Source of the DNA: Phycisphaerales bacterium
Lineage (GTDB): Bacteria; Planctomycetota; Phycisphaerae; Phycisphaerales; UBA1924
Assembly: GCA_016741915.1 (NCBI GenBank)
Contig: JACVCS010000008.1
Span: 1 to 64,000, forward strand
Reading direction: 5' to 3'
DNA: 64,000 nucleotides
A program made the position numbers and the translations under genes. The notes under the pieces are model-generated. The model ran no database searches. It saw only the letters and a program-made list of their open reading frames with translations, and was not told the origin of the DNA. Below are positions 1,432-51,510 of this stretch, piece by piece (the first letter of the stretch is position 1; each line of letters begins with the position of its first letter).

Positions 1432-2430
1432 ATGTCTCCACCGTCTTTGAAAGAAGGCGGTGGAGCTTTGCGCCGCAAATCTGCCTTGATGTCGTGCATA
1501 GTCGGTGCGACCATGTTCGTACTCGTTGGCTCTGCGCTCCCGTGGCTGTGGCTATGGCCTTACAGTGTTGCGTACCCGGGCACGTGGGGCCAACGAGTAA
1601 CCGCAGACGTGAGTTCTTGGGCGTCGATGTCGGACGTAGTTAGAGTCTTTGCCGTGCGAGGTATAGGTCGCGTACGAGTTTTCACACGGTATGACCCATG
1701 GCTCCACGAGTTGAACATCGCGGCGATTAAGAGCATGAACGCACCGACCGAAGTACTCGACCAACTCGAGTATTCTCGATCATTGAATCTGTATCTTTAC
1801 GAACGTGAATCGTACGATCAGATTGTCCGGATGTCTCCGTTCGTTTCCTCTTTGTATCCTAACCCTGAATCCTGGATCGCGCTGACTCGCAGATGCCGTT
1901 CCGCGCAGATCGACGAGGTCGGGTGGCCGATGAAGTGGGTGTGCGTGGTGCGTACAGCTGGACCTCTTTCGACGAACTTAGCCAACTCGGGTACAGTCGC
2001 AGATTCCACCGCGATCAAGTCCGCGTTGAAGGCGCCAGAAGTTGCACCGATGACCGATACGCAGTGGGAAGCGATGCTGTATATGTACAACGAAGCCGTG
2101 ATCGTAAGCGGTCTTCGTGACGGCGGAACAGTCATCGCCTGGCGGATCGGTTGGGAAGCCCTGATCGTCAATGTTCTTTTCTGGATGACGTGCGGCGCTG
2201 TTCTTTCCTGGTTTTTCCGTGAGACATTTCGGAGCGTGGGATGGCGTTTCTTCGCTCAGCGTCGGCTGAAGCAAGGCCGGTGCGCTCGGTGCGGATACCC
2301 GGCTTTAAAGAGCGTGATGGAACCCAACGGCACCGAGGTTGAACCACAGAAATGCCCTGAATGCGGACTCCCTGTCGGGGCTTTGCCCGGTGGTTTGCTG
2401 GGTAGACGACCGATCATGGTTCATCGTTAA
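1432..2430 (+). CDS. Membrane protein with C-terminal zinc ribbon
   Basis: The 332-residue product has one hydrophobic segment near the N-terminus (about 21-42), an extracytoplasmic-looking region of about 190 residues, a second membrane segment (about 242-262) and a cytoplasmic tail. The tail holds four cysteines (284, 287, 308, 311) in CARCGYPAL and CPECGLPVG, which is the zinc-ribbon style common in Planctomycetes membrane proteins. The ATG follows the previous TGA with no gap, indicating translational coupling. An internal Met at residue 20 (1489) is an alternative start. Two other proteins in the window (7349-8344, 8373-9188) carry the same ribbon at the N-terminus. The function is unknown. 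Confidence 0.75.
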   Translation: MSPPSLKEGGGALRRKSALMSCIVGATMFVLVGSALPWLWLWPYSVAYPGTWGQRVTADVSSWASMSDVVRVFAVRGIGRVRVFTRYDPWLHELNIAAIKSMNAPTEVLDQLEYSRSLNLYLYERESYDQIVRMSPFVSSLYPNPESWIALTRRCRSAQIDEVGWPMKWVCVVRTAGPLSTNLANSGTVADSTAIKSALKAPEVAPMTDTQWEAMLYMYNEAVIVSGLRDGGTVIAWRIGWEALIVNVLFWMTCGAVLSWFFRETFRSVGWRFFAQRRLKQGRCARCGYPALKSVMEPNGTEVEPQKCPECGLPVGALPGGLLGRRPIMVHR

Positions 2431-2433
2431 AGA

Positions 2434-2751
2434 GTGGTCAAAATCGCTGTGTTTGAATCGAGAGGCGATGGTGTATCATTCTTGAACAACGCGGCGCTTT
2501 TCGCGATTCGGCTCGTGTCTTTCGCGAAGGGCCTTGTTTCGTTCGCGAAAGAAGCCGTGTCTTTCGCGATTGGTGCTCTGTCCTTCGCGAAGAACGGCGC
2601 ATCGATCGCGAAAGACCTGATGTCATTCACGAAATACGTGATGTCCTTCACGAAAGACGCGGCGTCCTTCGCGAAAGAAGATGCACCTATCGGGTTATCG
2701 TTCGGGAAAGAGTCGGATTTTCCCGGATGGACTCGGCCAACCTGCGCATAA
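2434..2751 (+). CDS. Heptad-repeat ORF made of 21-bp tandem repeats (possible protein)
   Basis: A 105-codon frame opens with GTG three bases after the previous stop. Residues 17-85 are repeats of the heptad xxSFAKx, encoded by the 21-bp array at 2501-2695. If made, the protein would be small and largely amphipathic helix with one Lys per heptad, with no signal peptide or membrane segment. The opposite strand (2427-2651) is also open and reads FAKD repeats because the repeat core is palindromic, so openness alone is weak evidence for coding. Coupling to the zinc-ribbon gene favours the plus-strand reading. The function is unknown. Confidence 0.4.
   Translation: MVKIAVFESRGDGVSFLNNAALFAIRLVSFAKGLVSFAKEAVSFAIGALSFAKNGASIAKDLMSFTKYVMSFTKDAASFAKEDAPIGLSFGKESDFPGWTRPTCA
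2501..2695 (+). repeat. 21-bp tandem repeat with TCGCGA palindromic core
   Basis: Successive copies place TCGCGA (or TCACGA) at 2501, 2522, 2543, 2564, 2585, 2606, 2627, 2648 and 2669, exactly 21 bases apart, with a degenerate copy at 2690. The extended core is TTTCGCGAAAG. Copies differ at the edges but keep length and phase, so all stay in one reading frame. Confidence 0.95.
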
Positions 2752-2891: not shown

Positions 2892-3719
2892 TCAATACTT
2901 GCCGTCAAACCATGGGAAGGTGAAGACCGTGACATCAAGATGCCCGCGATTATCGCCGACAAGGGTGTCGTTGATCTGCAAAACGACTTCACCGCTTCGA
3001 TCCGCCGAAAAGTGGCTCAAAGCCGCATTCAGTTTGTCGGAGCCTTTGATCGCACACAAGAGGGCACCGTTGCCAAGGGCTGAGACGAGTCGATAACCCG
3101 CTGAGCCCGCTTCACCACGACCGTCAACCCAGCCCCCAAGGCTTACGCCCCATCGCCACTGCCCCTTAGCCGTGCAGATCACCACATCGTCTTTCACCGC
3201 GTTCAGGCCGCTGCCCTGCCATATCTCATCCGCAATGATCTTCACCCTTGCAGATTTGATACGAGCTTTTCGATCAGCCATATTCTGCTTGCGAATGCGA
3301 ATGTCCGCTGAAAGTCCTGCCATGGTCTTTAGGAACTGCGCATAATCTGCCCGAGATTTCTCATCAGTATCACCCAAGGCGGCCGCTACGACTTTATCTG
3401 AATCGCTGATGTTTTCAAGCAAAGCATCGAGACTTTTGATGATGGCGTCGTAATCGGATTCAAGATTCTTGAACGATTTTTCATCCGGCGTGTCCAGAAA
3501 ATACCGTTGCGTCACCATCAGCCTGGATTCCGCGGCACTCAGCTCAGACAGCATGGATTTGAACTGTTCACCAGAAAACTTCACGGCTTCGTTCTTGAGA
3601 ATTTGTTTGTTCGTCTCATCTTTCACATCAGATAGCCGTTTCATCACCAATGCGGTGCTTATTGCAGCAAGAACCACACCGGCACCAAGAATGATCAGAA
3701 GAGTTTTACGAGTTGCCAT
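2892..3719 (-). CDS. Membrane-anchored protein with PA-IL (LecA)-like lectin domain
   Basis: From the ATG at 3719 the product has 275 residues: a membrane anchor (about 5-25), a long charged helical or coiled-coil region (28-155), and a C-terminal beta domain (about 158-270). That domain has the layout of PA-IL/LecA-like lectins: a WQGSGL start, KGQWRWG, GALLCAIKG, and INDTLVGDNRGHLDV near 249-263, where LecA-type domains bind Ca2+ and galactose. The open frame extends 67 codons further upstream, but that part looks non-coding, and GGGAG lies before the chosen ATG. The domain probably faces the periplasm or surface. It is transcribed away from the Fn3 gene at 3989. Sugar binding is an inference. 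Confidence 0.7.
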   Translation of the reverse strand: MATRKTLLIILGAGVVLAAISTALVMKRLSDVKDETNKQILKNEAVKFSGEQFKSMLSELSAAESRLMVTQRYFLDTPDEKSFKNLESDYDAIIKSLDALLENISDSDKVVAAALGDTDEKSRADYAQFLKTMAGLSADIRIRKQNMADRKARIKSARVKIIADEIWQGSGLNAVKDDVVICTAKGQWRWGVSLGGWVDGRGEAGSAGYRLVSALGNGALLCAIKGSDKLNAALSHFSADRSGEVVLQINDTLVGDNRGHLDVTVFTFPWFDGKY

Positions 3720-3988
3720 CTGTGCATATCTCCCAAAGTCGAGAACGTCCAAGAACTCGATTGAGTTCGTAGCGGCCAGTATACCGGATTCACTCCAGAA
3801 AAGCAGCCATTGCCCTTTGAATAACCGGTTTACAGACTTCCGGAACAGGACTGAGGCAGCCCGGAATCTCAACCATTCTTGCCAGTTCTGTTCAATACTC
3901 GCAACTTCCACGACGACCATTGCTGAGTCGCCGAACAGACCGATTCATGTTGGATCAGCGCCTGTTTGGTCTACATGGAGACACGTTT

Positions 3989-4696
3989 ATGGCCATCGTC
4001 CCGACGAAGATCAACGACCTGCTCGAGTTCGCGTCGATCCATTCATCGCTCTGGGCCCAGACGCCAACCGCCTACGGGCTGACGGCGGCGCAGTGCACGG
4101 CCCTGACCAACGCCGTCAACGCCGCAACGGGGGCGTACTCCGACGCCCTCGACGCCAACCAGGCCAAGATCAAGGCCACCGGCACCAGCAACCAGAAGAT
4201 CTCGGCCCTCCGCACCAGCCTCGCCGAGACGATCAGCTTCATCAAGGCCTACGCCGAGACCCAGGCCGACCCCGCCCAGATCTTCATCAACGCCCAGCTT
4301 CCCCCTCCTGCACCGCCCGCCCCGGCACCCGCACCCGCCACGCCCACCGACGTGAAAGTCGGCGTACGCCTGACCGACGGCGCCGTCGAACTGAAGTGGA
4401 AAGCCAGCAACCCGCAGGCAACCGGCGGCGTCACGTACGTCATCCGCCGCCGCTTCGGCAGCGTCGGGCCCTTTGAGTACGCCGGGCTTGCCGGCAGCGA
4501 GAAGACCTTCGTCGACGAAACCCTCCCCCGCGGCGTGGACTTCGTGAACTACACCATCACCGGCACACGCTCGGGCGTCAGCGGCCAGCCCTGCGAAATC
4601 GCCGTCCGCTTCGGCACCGTCGGCCCCGGCGGAGCCCTCAACGTCGTCAGCGTCACCGAGAAGACGGGCGAATCAACCCCCAAACTCGCGGCGTAA
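3989..4696 (+). CDS. Fibronectin type III domain protein
   Basis: The 235-residue product starts at MAIVPTK (ATG 3989), with GGAG about ten bases upstream. The longer frame from 3920 overlaps the divergent upstream region and is not needed. Residues 1-100 form a helical, Ala/Thr-rich domain (AQTPTAYGLTAAQ) seen in small planctomycete Fn3 proteins. Residues 104-118 are a Pro/Ala linker, and about 119-215 form an Fn3-like sandwich with ELKWKAS, YVIRRR and VNYTITGTRSG. No signal peptide is visible, so location is unclear. It ends at a strong terminator. The role is unknown, possibly binding or structural. Confidence 0.75.
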   Translation: MAIVPTKINDLLEFASIHSSLWAQTPTAYGLTAAQCTALTNAVNAATGAYSDALDANQAKIKATGTSNQKISALRTSLAETISFIKAYAETQADPAQIFINAQLPPPAPPAPAPAPATPTDVKVGVRLTDGAVELKWKASNPQATGGVTYVIRRRFGSVGPFEYAGLAGSEKTFVDETLPRGVDFVNYTITGTRSGVSGQPCEIAVRFGTVGPGGALNVVSVTEKTGESTPKLAA

Positions 4697-4978: not shown

Positions 4979-6982
4979 TCACTCTTCGAGGTACGTGTAC
5001 CCCTCGAGCCCGTCGTCGTAGTACTTCAAGAGGCTCTTGCCCTCGCCGACGGTCAGTCGGCCCTGACGGCACGCGGCCTCGATGTCCAGGCGCATCGCAC
5101 GCTTCAGGTCCGCCACGTCGTACTGCACGTAGCTGAGCACCTCTTCGACCGTGTCACCCTCGATGACCTCTTCGATGGCCCACTGGCCGGCGTCGTTGAT
5201 GCTCAGGTGCACCGCGTGCGTGTCGCCCAGCAGGTTGTGCAGATCGCCCAGGATCTCCTGGTACGCCCCGAGCAGGAAGACGCCCAGGTAGTACGGCTCG
5301 ATCCCGACCTCGTTCTCCGGACGCTCGCGGACCTCGTGCAGTTCGAGGGTCTTTTTGTCGATGCGCTTGTCGACGAAGTGATCGACCTTGCCGTCGGAGT
5401 CGCAGGTGATATCGGCGAGGATGCCGCGGCGGGTCGGCTCTTCGTTCAGGCGGTGGATGGGGACGATCGGGAAGAGCTGATCGATGGCCCACGAGTCGGG
5501 CATCGATTGGAAGAGCGAGAAGTTGCAGAAGTAGATATCGCTGAGCAGTTCGGGGAGCGCGTCGAACTCGTCGGGCAGTTCGCCGCGCTTGTTGGCTTTC
5601 TCAAGGAGTTTGTGCCCGATCGCCCAGAAGAGCTGCTCCGCCACCGCCCGCATCGGCAGCGACATGTAGCCAAGGCTGAAGAGGCTCATCGCCTCGTCGC
5701 GGGCCTGCGTCGCGTCGTGATAGGTCTCCAGCAGGTTGCGGTCGGTGATGTTCTGGTAGGCGTCGAGCAGATCGAGCACGGGCTGGGGGACTTCCCCGCC
5801 GCGGGCTTTCTCGTCGTTCATTGCCTTGTCGATCGCCGCAAGGTCCGGGTTCGCCTCGAATCGTGAAGCGCCCACAACGTCGAGCACCAGCACGCTGCCA
5901 TAGGCAACCATCGCGCGGCCTGACTCAGAGATGATCTGCGGGTGCGGGACCTTCGCGTCGTCGCAGACGGCCTTGATGCGGTACACAACGTCGGCGGCAT
6001 ACTCCTGCACCGAGTAGTTGATGCTGCTGGACCATGCGGATTGGGAGCCGTCGTAGTCCACGCCCATGCCGCCGCCGATGTCGAGCATCGTCACGCCCGC
6101 GCCCATACGGTGCAGTTCGCAATAGATATGCGAGAGCTCGTTGACGGCGTTCTTCAGCACGCGGATATCGAAAAGCTGGCTGCCCACGTGGCAGTGCACC
6201 AGCTTCAGACAATCGAGCATGTCGTGCTTCTTGAGGTAATCGACGGCCTTGAGGACTTCGCTGACGAACAGGCCGAACTTGCTGCGCACGCCGGCGGAGG
6301 ATTCCCAGCGGCCCGCGCCCTTGCTGGAGAGCTTCACGCGGATGCCGATGCGCGGGCGGACGTTGTACGTCTTCGCGTGCTTGACGACGAGTTCCAGTTC
6401 GTCGAACTTCTCAACCACGGGGATGATGTTGCGCCCGAGCTTGGTGGCGAGGATGCAGGTCTCGATGAACTCGGAATCTTTGAACCCGTTGCAGATGATG
6501 GGCATGCCGTTGACGCCCGGGCCGCCGGCGGTTGCGGAGAGTCCGAGCACGGCGAGCAGTTCGGGCTTGCTGCCGGCCTCGAGACCGAAGTTCAGGTTGA
6601 CCGCCAGGGAGGCGATCTGCTCGCAGACGTGGCGTTGCTGGTTGACCTTGATTGGGTAGACGCAGCAGTAACCGCCGGTGTAGGCCTGCTCGCTCATGGC
6701 GGTGTCGAAGGCCTTGCGGATCTCGCGGAGGCGGTGTTCGAGGATGTCGTTGAAGCGGAGGAGGACGGGCGTGTGGATGCCGCGTTCCTTCAGGCCTTGA
6801 ACGACCTCGTGCAGGTCGATCGGGCGTGCGGGGTCTTTGGTGGGGTTGACGGTGACGTGCCCGAGGGTGTTGACCCCGACGTAGCCCTTGCCCCAGTCGT
6901 GGATGCCGTAGAGCCGGGCGGCGTCGTCGGGAGTCCAGAGACCTTGGATGAACGCGTTCTTGTTCGAGGAGATGGTGGCCAT
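4979..6982 (-). CDS. speA: Biosynthetic arginine decarboxylase
   Basis: SpeA decarboxylates arginine to agmatine with pyridoxal phosphate, the first step from arginine to putrescine and higher polyamines. The 667-residue length fits the family (about 630-660). The PLP lysine is visible at K112 in YPIKVNQQR, in the alpha/beta-barrel that follows a short N-terminal region. Other family blocks are ISESGRAMVAYGS and GGGMGVDYDGS, and the long C-terminal part ends LEGYTYLEE. It is transcribed alone from a promoter about 300 bases upstream (7292-7319), giving an unusually long 5' leader. No polyamine genes are next to it. Assignment is secure from motifs and length. Confidence 0.95.
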   Translation of the reverse strand: MATISSNKNAFIQGLWTPDDAARLYGIHDWGKGYVGVNTLGHVTVNPTKDPARPIDLHEVVQGLKERGIHTPVLLRFNDILEHRLREIRKAFDTAMSEQAYTGGYCCVYPIKVNQQRHVCEQIASLAVNLNFGLEAGSKPELLAVLGLSATAGGPGVNGMPIICNGFKDSEFIETCILATKLGRNIIPVVEKFDELELVVKHAKTYNVRPRIGIRVKLSSKGAGRWESSAGVRSKFGLFVSEVLKAVDYLKKHDMLDCLKLVHCHVGSQLFDIRVLKNAVNELSHIYCELHRMGAGVTMLDIGGGMGVDYDGSQSAWSSSINYSVQEYAADVVYRIKAVCDDAKVPHPQIISESGRAMVAYGSVLVLDVVGASRFEANPDLAAIDKAMNDEKARGGEVPQPVLDLLDAYQNITDRNLLETYHDATQARDEAMSLFSLGYMSLPMRAVAEQLFWAIGHKLLEKANKRGELPDEFDALPELLSDIYFCNFSLFQSMPDSWAIDQLFPIVPIHRLNEEPTRRGILADITCDSDGKVDHFVDKRIDKKTLELHEVRERPENEVGIEPYYLGVFLLGAYQEILGDLHNLLGDTHAVHLSINDAGQWAIEEVIEGDTVEEVLSYVQYDVADLKRAMRLDIEAACRQGRLTVGEGKSLLKYYDDGLEGYTYLEE

Positions 6983-33071: not shown

Positions 33072-34061
33072 TCACTCGGAGAACATGGCCTCGACGAACG
33101 AATCGGGATCGAAGGGCTGCAGGTCGTCGGGGGTTTCGCCCGTGCCGACGAACTTGACGGGGATGCTGGCGACGGCGCGGATGGCGATGATGATGCCGCC
33201 CTTGGCGGTGCCGTCGAGTTTGCTGAGCACGATGCCGGTGACGGGGGCGCTCTTGGAGAACTCCTGGGCCTGGCGGAGGGCGTTTTGGCCGGTGGTGGCG
33301 TCGAGGACGAGGAGGGTTTCGTGCGGCGCGCCGGGGATCTGCTTGCCGAGAACCTTGTAGATTTTTTCGAGCTGGCGCATCAGCGGGTCCTGGGTTTGCA
33401 GGCGGCCGGCGGTGTCGACGATGAGCACGTCGACGGCGCGTGCGGCGGCGGCTTTGGCGGCGTCGAAGGCCACGGCGGCCGGGTCGCCGCCTTGTTGACC
33501 CTTGATGACCTCAACGCCCAGGCGCTCGCCCCAGATTTCAAGCTGACGCACGGCGCCGGCGCGGAAGGTGTCGCACGCGGCGAGGAGGACCTTCTTTTCC
33601 TGCCTGCGGAAATAGGCCGCGAGCTTGGCGATGCTGGTGGTTTTGCCCGCACCATTGATGCCGGTGACGAGGATGACGGTGGGGGGCTTGATGCCGGTGG
33701 CGGGGTCGGGCTTTGCGACGAGGAGTTCGGTGGAGAGCGGGCGCGGCTCGGGCTCGCCCGGGATGCCCGCTTGCTTCGGGCCTTGCTGCAGCAGTTCGCG
33801 CACGTGGCGCTTGAGGTGTTCGAGCAGGTCCTTGGATTCCTTGAGCTTCCCGGCGTTGAAGTCGTCCTTTGCGGAATCGATCAGCCGGGTGGTGGCCTCG
33901 ACGCCGACGTCGGCTTCGAGGAGCATCCGCCGAACGTCCTCGATGAGCGCATCGTCGAGCGTGCGGCCGAGGATGAGGGATTTCAGCCCGCGGACGAGCG
34001 TCTCGCGCGTCTTGCTGAGCCCGTCCTTCAGCTTCGAGATGATGTTGGAGAAGAAACCCAT
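33072..34061 (-). CDS. ftsY: Signal recognition particle receptor
   Basis: FtsY is the membrane-associated GTPase that docks SRP-ribosome complexes to the translocon. The 329-residue product contains the NG domain: an N-terminal helical bundle (about 20-100), P-loop GINGAGKTTS, the insertion box with ACDTFRAGAVRQLEIW, DTAGRLQTQ, LVLDATTGQNAL, SKLDGTAKGG and GTGETPDDLQPF near the end. The acidic A domain of E. coli FtsY is absent; the N-terminus is a short basic helix (NIISKLKDGLSKTRE). An 8-bp tandem array lies immediately upstream. Confidence 0.95.
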   Translation of the reverse strand: MGFFSNIISKLKDGLSKTRETLVRGLKSLILGRTLDDALIEDVRRMLLEADVGVEATTRLIDSAKDDFNAGKLKESKDLLEHLKRHVRELLQQGPKQAGIPGEPEPRPLSTELLVAKPDPATGIKPPTVILVTGINGAGKTTSIAKLAAYFRRQEKKVLLAACDTFRAGAVRQLEIWGERLGVEVIKGQQGGDPAAVAFDAAKAAAARAVDVLIVDTAGRLQTQDPLMRQLEKIYKVLGKQIPGAPHETLLVLDATTGQNALRQAQEFSKSAPVTGIVLSKLDGTAKGGIIIAIRAVASIPVKFVGTGETPDDLQPFDPDSFVEAMFSE

Positions 34062-34069
34062 GGGGAAGG

Positions 34070-34140
34070 GATCGGGGGATCAAGGGATCGAGGGATCGAG
34101 GGAACGAGGGATCAAGGGATCAAGAGATCGGGGATCAAAG
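34070..34140 (-). repeat. 8-bp tandem array GATC[A/G]AGG (about nine units)
   Basis: GATC or a close variant recurs at 34070, 34078, 34086, 34094, 34102 (GAAC), 34110, 34118, 34126 and 34133. It lies between nusB and the ftsY start codon. The same unit in the opposite orientation occurs at 44461-44484. Confidence 0.9.
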
Positions 34141-49794: not shown

Positions 49795-51510
49795 TCAAAC
49801 GCACGGGAGGAACAGGTTGTTGAAGAAGCAGTTGTAATCGCCTTCGTTCACGCCGTTGTTGGTACATCCCGGCGATTCGCTCAACGCCGAACCATTGTCG
49901 CAAGCAATATCGCAAGAGCCACCCACCGCCGCGATCCCCAAGCCGGCTTGGAAGAAGAATCCGTCGGCGGCGAAGAAGGCGTTGTAGTCCCCTTCGTTCG
50001 GTCCGGCGCTGGAGTTTGTGCAGCCCGGCGCGATACTCAGCGGCGTGCCGTTATCACACGCCAGGTCCGCAGGATTGCAGCCACCGGTTAGCTCGGGCAA
50101 CTGGATCAGGAAAACCCGGTTGTAAGCCGTCAAACCGCCCGCGCCGTCGGGGTCGAAGGTTCCGTAGCCGGTCACCCAACCCGTGTCGCTGATGCCGCGG
50201 GCCTCGATGAGTGTCCAGAGCGGTTGGTCGGCGGCGGAGAGCAGCGTGTTCAGGTCGATCGCCTCGCCGTTGACGCCCCACGCAACCGCGCGATTACCGA
50301 GATTCGCGCCGCCACTCCGCTTCTCCGCATACCCGACGGCCGTTCCGGCCGAGTTCACCGCGTACGCCCGGCTGAACGTGGTGCCGCTGTCGTCGGTGCC
50401 AAGATTCCCCAACTCGATCGCGTCGGTGCCCGACGCGTCCCAACGCACCGCCCGTGAACCGACCGACGTGCCGTCGATGTACTTCAACGCGTACCCGACG
50501 CACGTGCCGGCGGTGTTCACCGCGTACGCCTCGTTGAATGTGTTGCCGGCGTTGTTCGTTCCGAGGTTCCCCAACTCGGTCGCGTCGGTGCCCATCGCGG
50601 CCCATCGCACGGCGCGGGTACCGAGGTATGTGCCGTCGATGTACTTGCTCGAGTATCCGACCGCTGTGCCGTCGGTGTTCACGGCATAGGCATAACTGCT
50701 CGCGAAGCCGTTGATGTCGGTGCCCAGAATGTTGTCCAGTTCGGTCGCGGCGGTGCCCGAGGCATCCCACCTGACCGCACGCTCGCCAACGTACGTGCCG
50801 TCGGAGTATTTCCAGGCGTAACCGACGGCCGTACCGCTGGAGTTCAGCGCGAAGGCGCGGCTGTTTGTGTTGCCGCTGGCGCTGGTGCCGAGGTTGCCCA
50901 GTTCGGTTGCGACCGTGTCCGAGGCGGTCCACCGCACGGCGCGGTCGCCCTGGATTGCGCCGCCGACGTACTTTCTCGCGTACCCGACGATCGTGCCCGC
51001 GTCGTTGATCGCGTGGGCGGCGGTGCTCGAGACCCCGGTACCGCTGGTACCGAGGTTGCCCAGTTCAGTCGCGGCAGTCCCGGAGGCGTTCCAACGAACT
51101 GCGCGGGAACCCAGGGACGTGTTCCCATTGAACTTGTTCGCGAAACCCACCGCGGTGCCGTCGGCGTTCAAGGCGTACGCGATGCTGCTCGTGCTGCCAC
51201 TCGCGTTGGTGCCGAGGTTGCCCAACTCGGTCGCGTTATTGCTGAAGGCGTTCAGACGCACGGCTCGGGTGCCGAGGGACGTGTTGCCGTTGAACTTGGT
51301 CGTTGAACCGACACCGATGCCGCTGCCCGCGGTGATGCCCGGCACGAAGCTTGGCAGGAACGGCGACTGAAAACCCGTGCCGGTGGTGCTGTCGTACGTC
51401 AGCCCGCCGAAGATCGGAGCGCCTTGCGCACCCGCAGCGGCCGCCAGAAGTGTCATCCCCGCGACGCAGGTCAGAAACTCAATGTGATACCTCGCTGATT
51501 TCGCAGCCAT
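49795..51510 (-). CDS. Secreted HAF-repeat protein with two C-terminal GDYNxFF modules
   Basis: From ATG 51510 (AAAGGA upstream) the product has 571 residues: a signal peptide (about 1-30), then about eight repeats of some 50 residues with the pattern RAVRWxASGTxATELGNLGT and AYAVNxxGTAVGYAxKY, the HAF family of extracellular repeats expected to form a beta-propeller-like or solenoid structure. The C-terminal 95 residues hold two copies of a Cys module: CDNG, PGCTN and NEGDYNAFF or NEGDYNCFF. That module is a recurrent C-terminal element of planctomycete secreted proteins and may anchor them. Its DNA shows strong internal repetition. Bracketed by 45-bp direct repeats. Adhesion or surface role is inferred. 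Confidence 0.85.
   Translation of the reverse strand: MAAKSARYHIEFLTCVAGMTLLAAAAGAQGAPIFGGLTYDSTTGTGFQSPFLPSFVPGITAGSGIGVGSTTKFNGNTSLGTRAVRLNAFSNNATELGNLGTNASGSTSSIAYALNADGTAVGFANKFNGNTSLGSRAVRWNASGTAATELGNLGTSGTGVSSTAAHAINDAGTIVGYARKYVGGAIQGDRAVRWTASDTVATELGNLGTSASGNTNSRAFALNSSGTAVGYAWKYSDGTYVGERAVRWDASGTAATELDNILGTDINGFASSYAYAVNTDGTAVGYSSKYIDGTYLGTRAVRWAAMGTDATELGNLGTNNAGNTFNEAYAVNTAGTCVGYALKYIDGTSVGSRAVRWDASGTDAIELGNLGTDDSGTTFSRAYAVNSAGTAVGYAEKRSGGANLGNRAVAWGVNGEAIDLNTLLSAADQPLWTLIEARGISDTGWVTGYGTFDPDGAGGLTAYNRVFLIQLPELTGGCNPADLACDNGTPLSIAPGCTNSSAGPNEGDYNAFFAADGFFFQAGLGIAAVGGSCDIACDNGSALSESPGCTNNGVNEGDYNCFFNNLFLPCV

Follow-up and report, generated by a model that had tools for sequence, protein, structure and literature searches.

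An intergenic array of dyad-symmetric 21-bp units in a planctomycete genome as a putative row of protein-binding sites

Introduction

Bacterial genomes contain constant-size tandem repeats (20-21 nt, or 52 nt) whose sequences are variable (Subirana and Messeguer, IJMS 2021, PMC8161180). They occur in many bacterial groups, are in general non-coding and species-specific, and carry a short characteristic sequence (PMC8161180). A repeat of 20-21 nt corresponds to two helical turns, and either protein polymerisation on DNA or a role as small RNAs was proposed; the search was made for units that are alike, and it found no sequence conservation between species (PMC8161180). The first survey of these authors took species with more than 19 arrays, and the 2021 paper dropped this threshold (PMC8161180). 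The 20-21 nt repeats, reported from across the bacteria, still lack an explanation.

Here we analyze an array near the start of a 64,000-nucleotide stretch of DNA from a Phycisphaerales bacterium (contig JACVCS010000008.1; hereafter, the window). The array is best filed among the constant-size 20-21 nt repeats as a new member, and it shares most of their features. Its unit length is constant at 21 nt over 10 units, the same holds for a second array in the genome, and both exceed the four-repeat minimum of the class (10 and ~11 units). Both are intergenic and a coding function is disfavoured, with a synonymous excess remaining in the plus frame. The family is also species-specific, with one consensus in two arrays and no 21-bp array in the other planctomycetes searched. 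In contrast to the species of the first survey, only two arrays are present in a genome that is 92% complete. The units also differ from the described repeats in being only ~60% alike and dyad-symmetric, and in having a TTCGCGAA-type core that recurs with variable spacers in several Bacillaceae. No description of TTCGCGAA arrays was found in the open-access literature searched by core sequence.

Operator-like or iteron-like arrays (parS, Noc sites, plasmid iterons) also consist of repeated sites, dyad or direct, that keep helical phase and are able to nucleate a protein filament. We take the array sequence to be different from parS and Noc sites, and no replication or partition gene lies next to either array. 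CRISPR arrays likewise have a conserved, partly palindromic core, variable stretches and regular spacing, but a core of 8-18 bp and a spacer of 3-13 bp, as seen here, are far too short, and there is no sign of externally acquired spacers.

Results

The features of the locus are listed in Table 1. Its ten units carry TTCGCGAA-like 8-mer cores at positions 2479+21k (cores 2479-2668), embedded in the consensus unit GGCGTCTTTCGCGAAAGACGT. Nine of the cores are clear, starting at 2500, 2521 and so on to 2668, which bears out the exact 21-bp spacing described in a sequence-only reading of this DNA; the tenth, at 2479, has decayed and reads TTCTTGAA. When 8-mers with at least 6/8 matches to TTCGCGAA are counted as cores, the longest 21-spaced run in the window is 10. 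Shuffling the whole window 60 times with a first-order Markov model gave runs of 3 or fewer, and no other period between 15 and 29 exceeds a run of 2 in the window itself. Other parts of the earlier description required revision. The 11-mer TTTCGCGAAAG, which it had quoted as the common core, is exact in no unit, and its matches are 1-2 mismatches off. The range that it gave, 2434-2751, encloses the array but is that of an open reading frame, and the array proper occupies 2479-2688. Similarly, a start 3 bases past the zinc-ribbon gene is correct for the open frame, counted from the upstream stop codon, while the array begins ~50 bases after that gene.

Table 1. Features at and around the array (positions in the window)
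Feature	Position	Strand	Remarks
Tandem array, ten 21-bp units (nine clear, first decayed)	2479..2688	.	core TTCGCGAA at 2479+21k
Single 21-bp unit, dyad-centred register of consensus GGCGTCTTTCGCGAAAGACGT	2493..2513	.	9/10 dyad pairs
Core-like TTCGGGAA, off the 21-bp phase, 3' of array	2701..2708	.	33 bp from last phased core
Open frame enclosing array, probably no gene	2434..2751	+	GTG start, 105 aa, SFAK heptads
Antisense open frame, dyad consequence	2427..2651	-	74 aa, FAKD heptads
Upstream gene, zinc-ribbon-like C-terminus	1432..2430	+	no Pfam match; full-length ortholog in 0/12 relatives
Downstream convergent ORF, real start possibly further in	2892..3920	-	no function assigned

The consensus of the two arrays, CGTCTTTCGCGAAAGACG, is a dyad with complementary bases in 9/10 pairs (0.0011 for a random consensus). 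The dyad, together with the coincidence of third codon positions between the two frames, makes the same heptads readable on both strands; the SFAK heptads on the plus strand and FAKD heptads on the minus strand noted earlier are both found in the window array. Unit identity is 0.60 within the window array, 0.62 within the second array, 0.60 between arrays and 0.62 for adjacent units. Although units are only ~60% identical, the 21-bp phase is exact, with ~100 substitutions from the consensus and a unit length that is constant over all 19 steps. Units of both arrays radiate star-like from GGCGTCTTTCGCGAAAGACGT, and neighbours resemble each other no more than units far apart do; there is therefore no sign of recent tandem duplication.

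The window array lies between the upstream plus-strand gene and the convergent minus-strand ORF of Table 1. Positions 343-2430 upstream of it hold two abutting plus-strand genes (the first stops at 1431 and the second starts at 1432), neither of which matches Pfam. This segment looks strain-specific, since 12 relatives yielded no full-length ortholog of the second gene and both genes are missing from beside speA in a genome of the same genus, in which the speA neighbourhood contains different genes.

A genome-wide search for core pairs at a distance of 21 bp (3.59 Mb, 160 contigs, 92% complete) identified one other array, at ~62258-62470 of contig C52, flanked by eno and phoU, which are divergently oriented. 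It has 11 core positions (~11 units) in exact 21-bp phase, with the same consensus as the window array, and Pfam confirms the PhoU domain of the adjacent gene. Both arrays are thus intergenic, one between convergent and the other between divergent genes. As they adjoin unrelated genes, no common regulon is visible. The second array is flanked by two short AAATGGC-type repeats, upstream of eno and just after phoU (4145-4178 and 5437-5469 of stretch L007).

Neither array is present in the same-genus genome, in which the eno-phoU spacer measures 223 bp compared with 569 bp here. Among 100 relatives we detected isolated core pairs only and no array, and a strict-pattern search of 392 planctomycete genomes returned no other 21-bp triple and two genomes with period 17. 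The search for other arrays in planctomycete genomes, which the earlier description had offered as a check, thus gives a count of 1/392 for 21-bp arrays, this genome, and such arrays are not a planctomycete feature.

This distribution would suit a decaying minisatellite, in which slippage or hairpin-prone replication multiplied a dyad 21-mer that came to lie at two places by insertion or copying and has no function, the spacing being a relic of the original duplication. The arrays occur in one species and are missing from its same-genus relative, units at the array edges have decayed, the star-like relationship of the units is that expected after a burst, and bacteria contain scattered 21-nt tandem arrays that differ in sequence. 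Decay should, however, have disturbed the phase: at an assumed ratio of 1 indel per 10-20 substitutions, 5-10 length changes are expected and 0 occurred in 19 steps. Adjacent units are also no more similar than distant ones, and in Bacillaceae, as shown below, cores outlast spacers. We consider this explanation possible but doubtful.

A dyad array also invites a reading at the RNA level, in which hairpins in the transcript would stabilise its 3' end, cause termination or function as a small RNA. Folding of the plus strand is stronger than that of dinucleotide shuffles (z = -5.0), a property that every dyad array is bound to have; the genes flanking the window copy are convergent, and small-RNA roles have been proposed for the constant-size repeat class (PMC8161180). 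Yet the paired positions of the dyad do not covary, with 127 complementary cells compared with 125.1 +/- 4.1 in shuffles, the genes around the second array are divergent, and the Bacillaceae units would form weak A/T stems. Matches to Rfam are far under the gathering cut-off (30 vs 71.4 bits), and an RNA-level element appears very improbable. The candidate in question, Enterococcus-1 RNA (RF02973), was rejected at 30 bits against a gathering score of 71.4, its full-model match being driven by self-pairing repeats.

The sequence-only reading had posed a choice between selection on a protein heptad and selection on regularly spaced DNA sites. If the array codes for protein, 2434-2751 on the plus strand would be the third gene of an operon, specifying an amphipathic helix with V/A at position a and F at position d of each heptad. 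The frame is open, with a GTG 3 bases past the upstream stop codon, and neither array has frame-breaking indels. In the plus frame, 40/101 differences from the consensus are synonymous versus 27.2 expected (p = 0.004 before six-frame correction), and the minus frame also shows a synonymous excess (p = 0.035). The comparison of synonymous and non-synonymous changes between units, which had been offered as a check, therefore does give an excess (40/101 vs 27), but one confounded by the dyad, since the weak positions of the dyad coincide with third codon positions in the plus and minus frames alike. With six frames tried and units that share descent, the excess is weaker than it looks. As a positive control of the coding test, an Anoxybacillus flavithermus array (stretch L052) was flagged as coding (27/51 synonymous vs 12, p = 6e-6). 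This 21-bp array, at 1638-1868 of L052, appears to encode the coiled-coil heptad REEQKAI, and the TTCGCGAA word in it is incidental.

Several observations argue against coding. Ala in the core is encoded by GCG in 14/15 cases compared with 0.36 in neighbouring genes (p = 6e-6, which is optimistic as units share descent), and the Lys codon is AAA in 9/15 compared with 0.30. Third positions within the core vary in 4/40 cases, as little as other core positions, whereas spacers vary in 44/100 (p = 7e-5, optimistic for the same reason). The second array is preceded by an in-frame stop 9 codons upstream and has no start codon before it, and the stretch between this array and the phoU start, which is kept in the same-genus genome, shows no codon bias. 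The array ORFs have no Pfam match and no homolog, and no related coding locus was matched in viruses, phages or plasmids. A coding function would, moreover, leave the palindrome unexplained. DNA sites are favoured over a heptad by the dyad, the conservation of synonymous positions in the core, the lack of a plausible start at the second array and the non-coding nature of the Bacillaceae arrays; the heptad lacks a homolog or independent support. Coding is accordingly disfavoured, and for the window copy it stays a minor rival that we rate as quite unlikely.

In Bacillaceae, arrays with the same core provide a comparison for the DNA-site reading. TTCRYGAA triples, with spacings of 17-25 bp allowed, were present in 9/151 Bacillaceae genomes; one of the nine is the genome chosen as the centre of the sample, and the others were drawn regardless of arrays. 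A reversed-core control gave 0/151, and core spacings are 19-21 bp among the matches listed. Bacillus (Peribacillus) muralis (L071), which has been grouped with the 21-nt species (PMC8161180), is among the TTCRYGAA matches. The arrays of Bacillus massilionigeriensis were intergenic at the 14 places examined, with short, probably spurious ORFs overlapping some of them, and their cores are kept while spacers differ from unit to unit. Across orthologous arrays at five loci, each compared in three species, which proceed in 21-bp steps, cores were kept in 170/176 columns compared with 189/242 for spacers (p = 2e-8); a core column was any column in which at least one sequence has the core, and the definition is thus partly circular. 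The 19-21 bp spacing of the Bacillaceae TTCGCGAA arrays does not respect the reading frame. Judged from these alignments, it is clearly the sites, and not a protein, that are kept in this family.

The planctomycete array resembles the Bacillaceae arrays in core, spacing and intergenic position. Spacer similarity between the planctomycete arrays and 115 other arrays was within the shuffle range, with no homology beyond core and spacing. Carrying the Bacillaceae result over to the planctomycete rests on what the two have in common, core, spacing and position, and not on homology. In some Bacillaceae (L242-L244, L251-L253), a related core, TATGAGCGAAT, continues the ~21-bp periodicity next to the TTCGCGAA arrays, as if the half-site CGAAT were kept and the other half relaxed.

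Outside Bacillaceae the picture is different. A species-genome scan for three cores at 21 bp recovered at least 115 stretches from many phyla. Genomes that were not selected for arrays, counted without the chosen centre, gave 0/295 in Bacteroidota, 1/193 in cyanobacteria and 3/234 in Myxococcota, and in only one of these four genomes do both spacings fall within 19-21 bp (20 and 20). As unselected genomes outside Bacillaceae have almost none, the collection of at least 115 stretches is a mixed bag. In viral contigs the core was found at 21 bp 6 times, other palindromic 8-mers 3 and 10 times, and the same core at 24 bp 5 times. As these figures are of similar size, the spread of the scan matches over many phyla shows little by itself. 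We rejected TTCRYGAA as a universal core of 21-nt arrays, given that outside Bacillaceae it is not demonstrably special. Homology to a Polyangium array of similar appearance (L110, flanked by pyrE and a convergent gene) was also discarded, its spacer similarity being within chance, and extended dyads in the other arrays are not clearly above chance.

Discussion

Our best explanation, to which we would give an even chance, is that the arrays are rows of intergenic dyad-symmetric sites (CGTCTTTCGCGAAAGACG), placed every two helical turns, at which putative dimer binding would seat a cooperative protein. Because the spacing equals two helical turns, all sites lie on the same helix face. A dimeric DNA-binding protein would load cooperatively along the array, and the bound protein would form a short nucleoprotein filament, the role of which may be architectural or local regulatory. 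The planctomycete arrays would work like those of Bacillaceae, and such binding might influence gene expression or nucleoid structure.

A broader proposal is that helically phased TTC-RY-GAA arrays represent one recurring bacterial nucleoprotein site. Such a site, with a phase-kept core and drifting spacers, would be clearest in Bacillaceae, would have arisen independently in, or been transferred into, distant phyla including this planctomycete, and would be served by a common class of binding protein. We regard this as unlikely. In Bacillaceae, the conservation of cores, the drift of spacers and the two-turn spacing held between species make the proposal of a protein polymerising on DNA directly testable.

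Two further repeats were observed in the window. At 34067-34136, about nine copies of an 8-bp AGGGATCG-like repeat lie just upstream of an ftsY-like gene (33072-34061, minus strand), and a 162-bp repeat is present in ~2.2 copies at 50326-50682; its length is divisible by three, and it probably corresponds to protein repeats.
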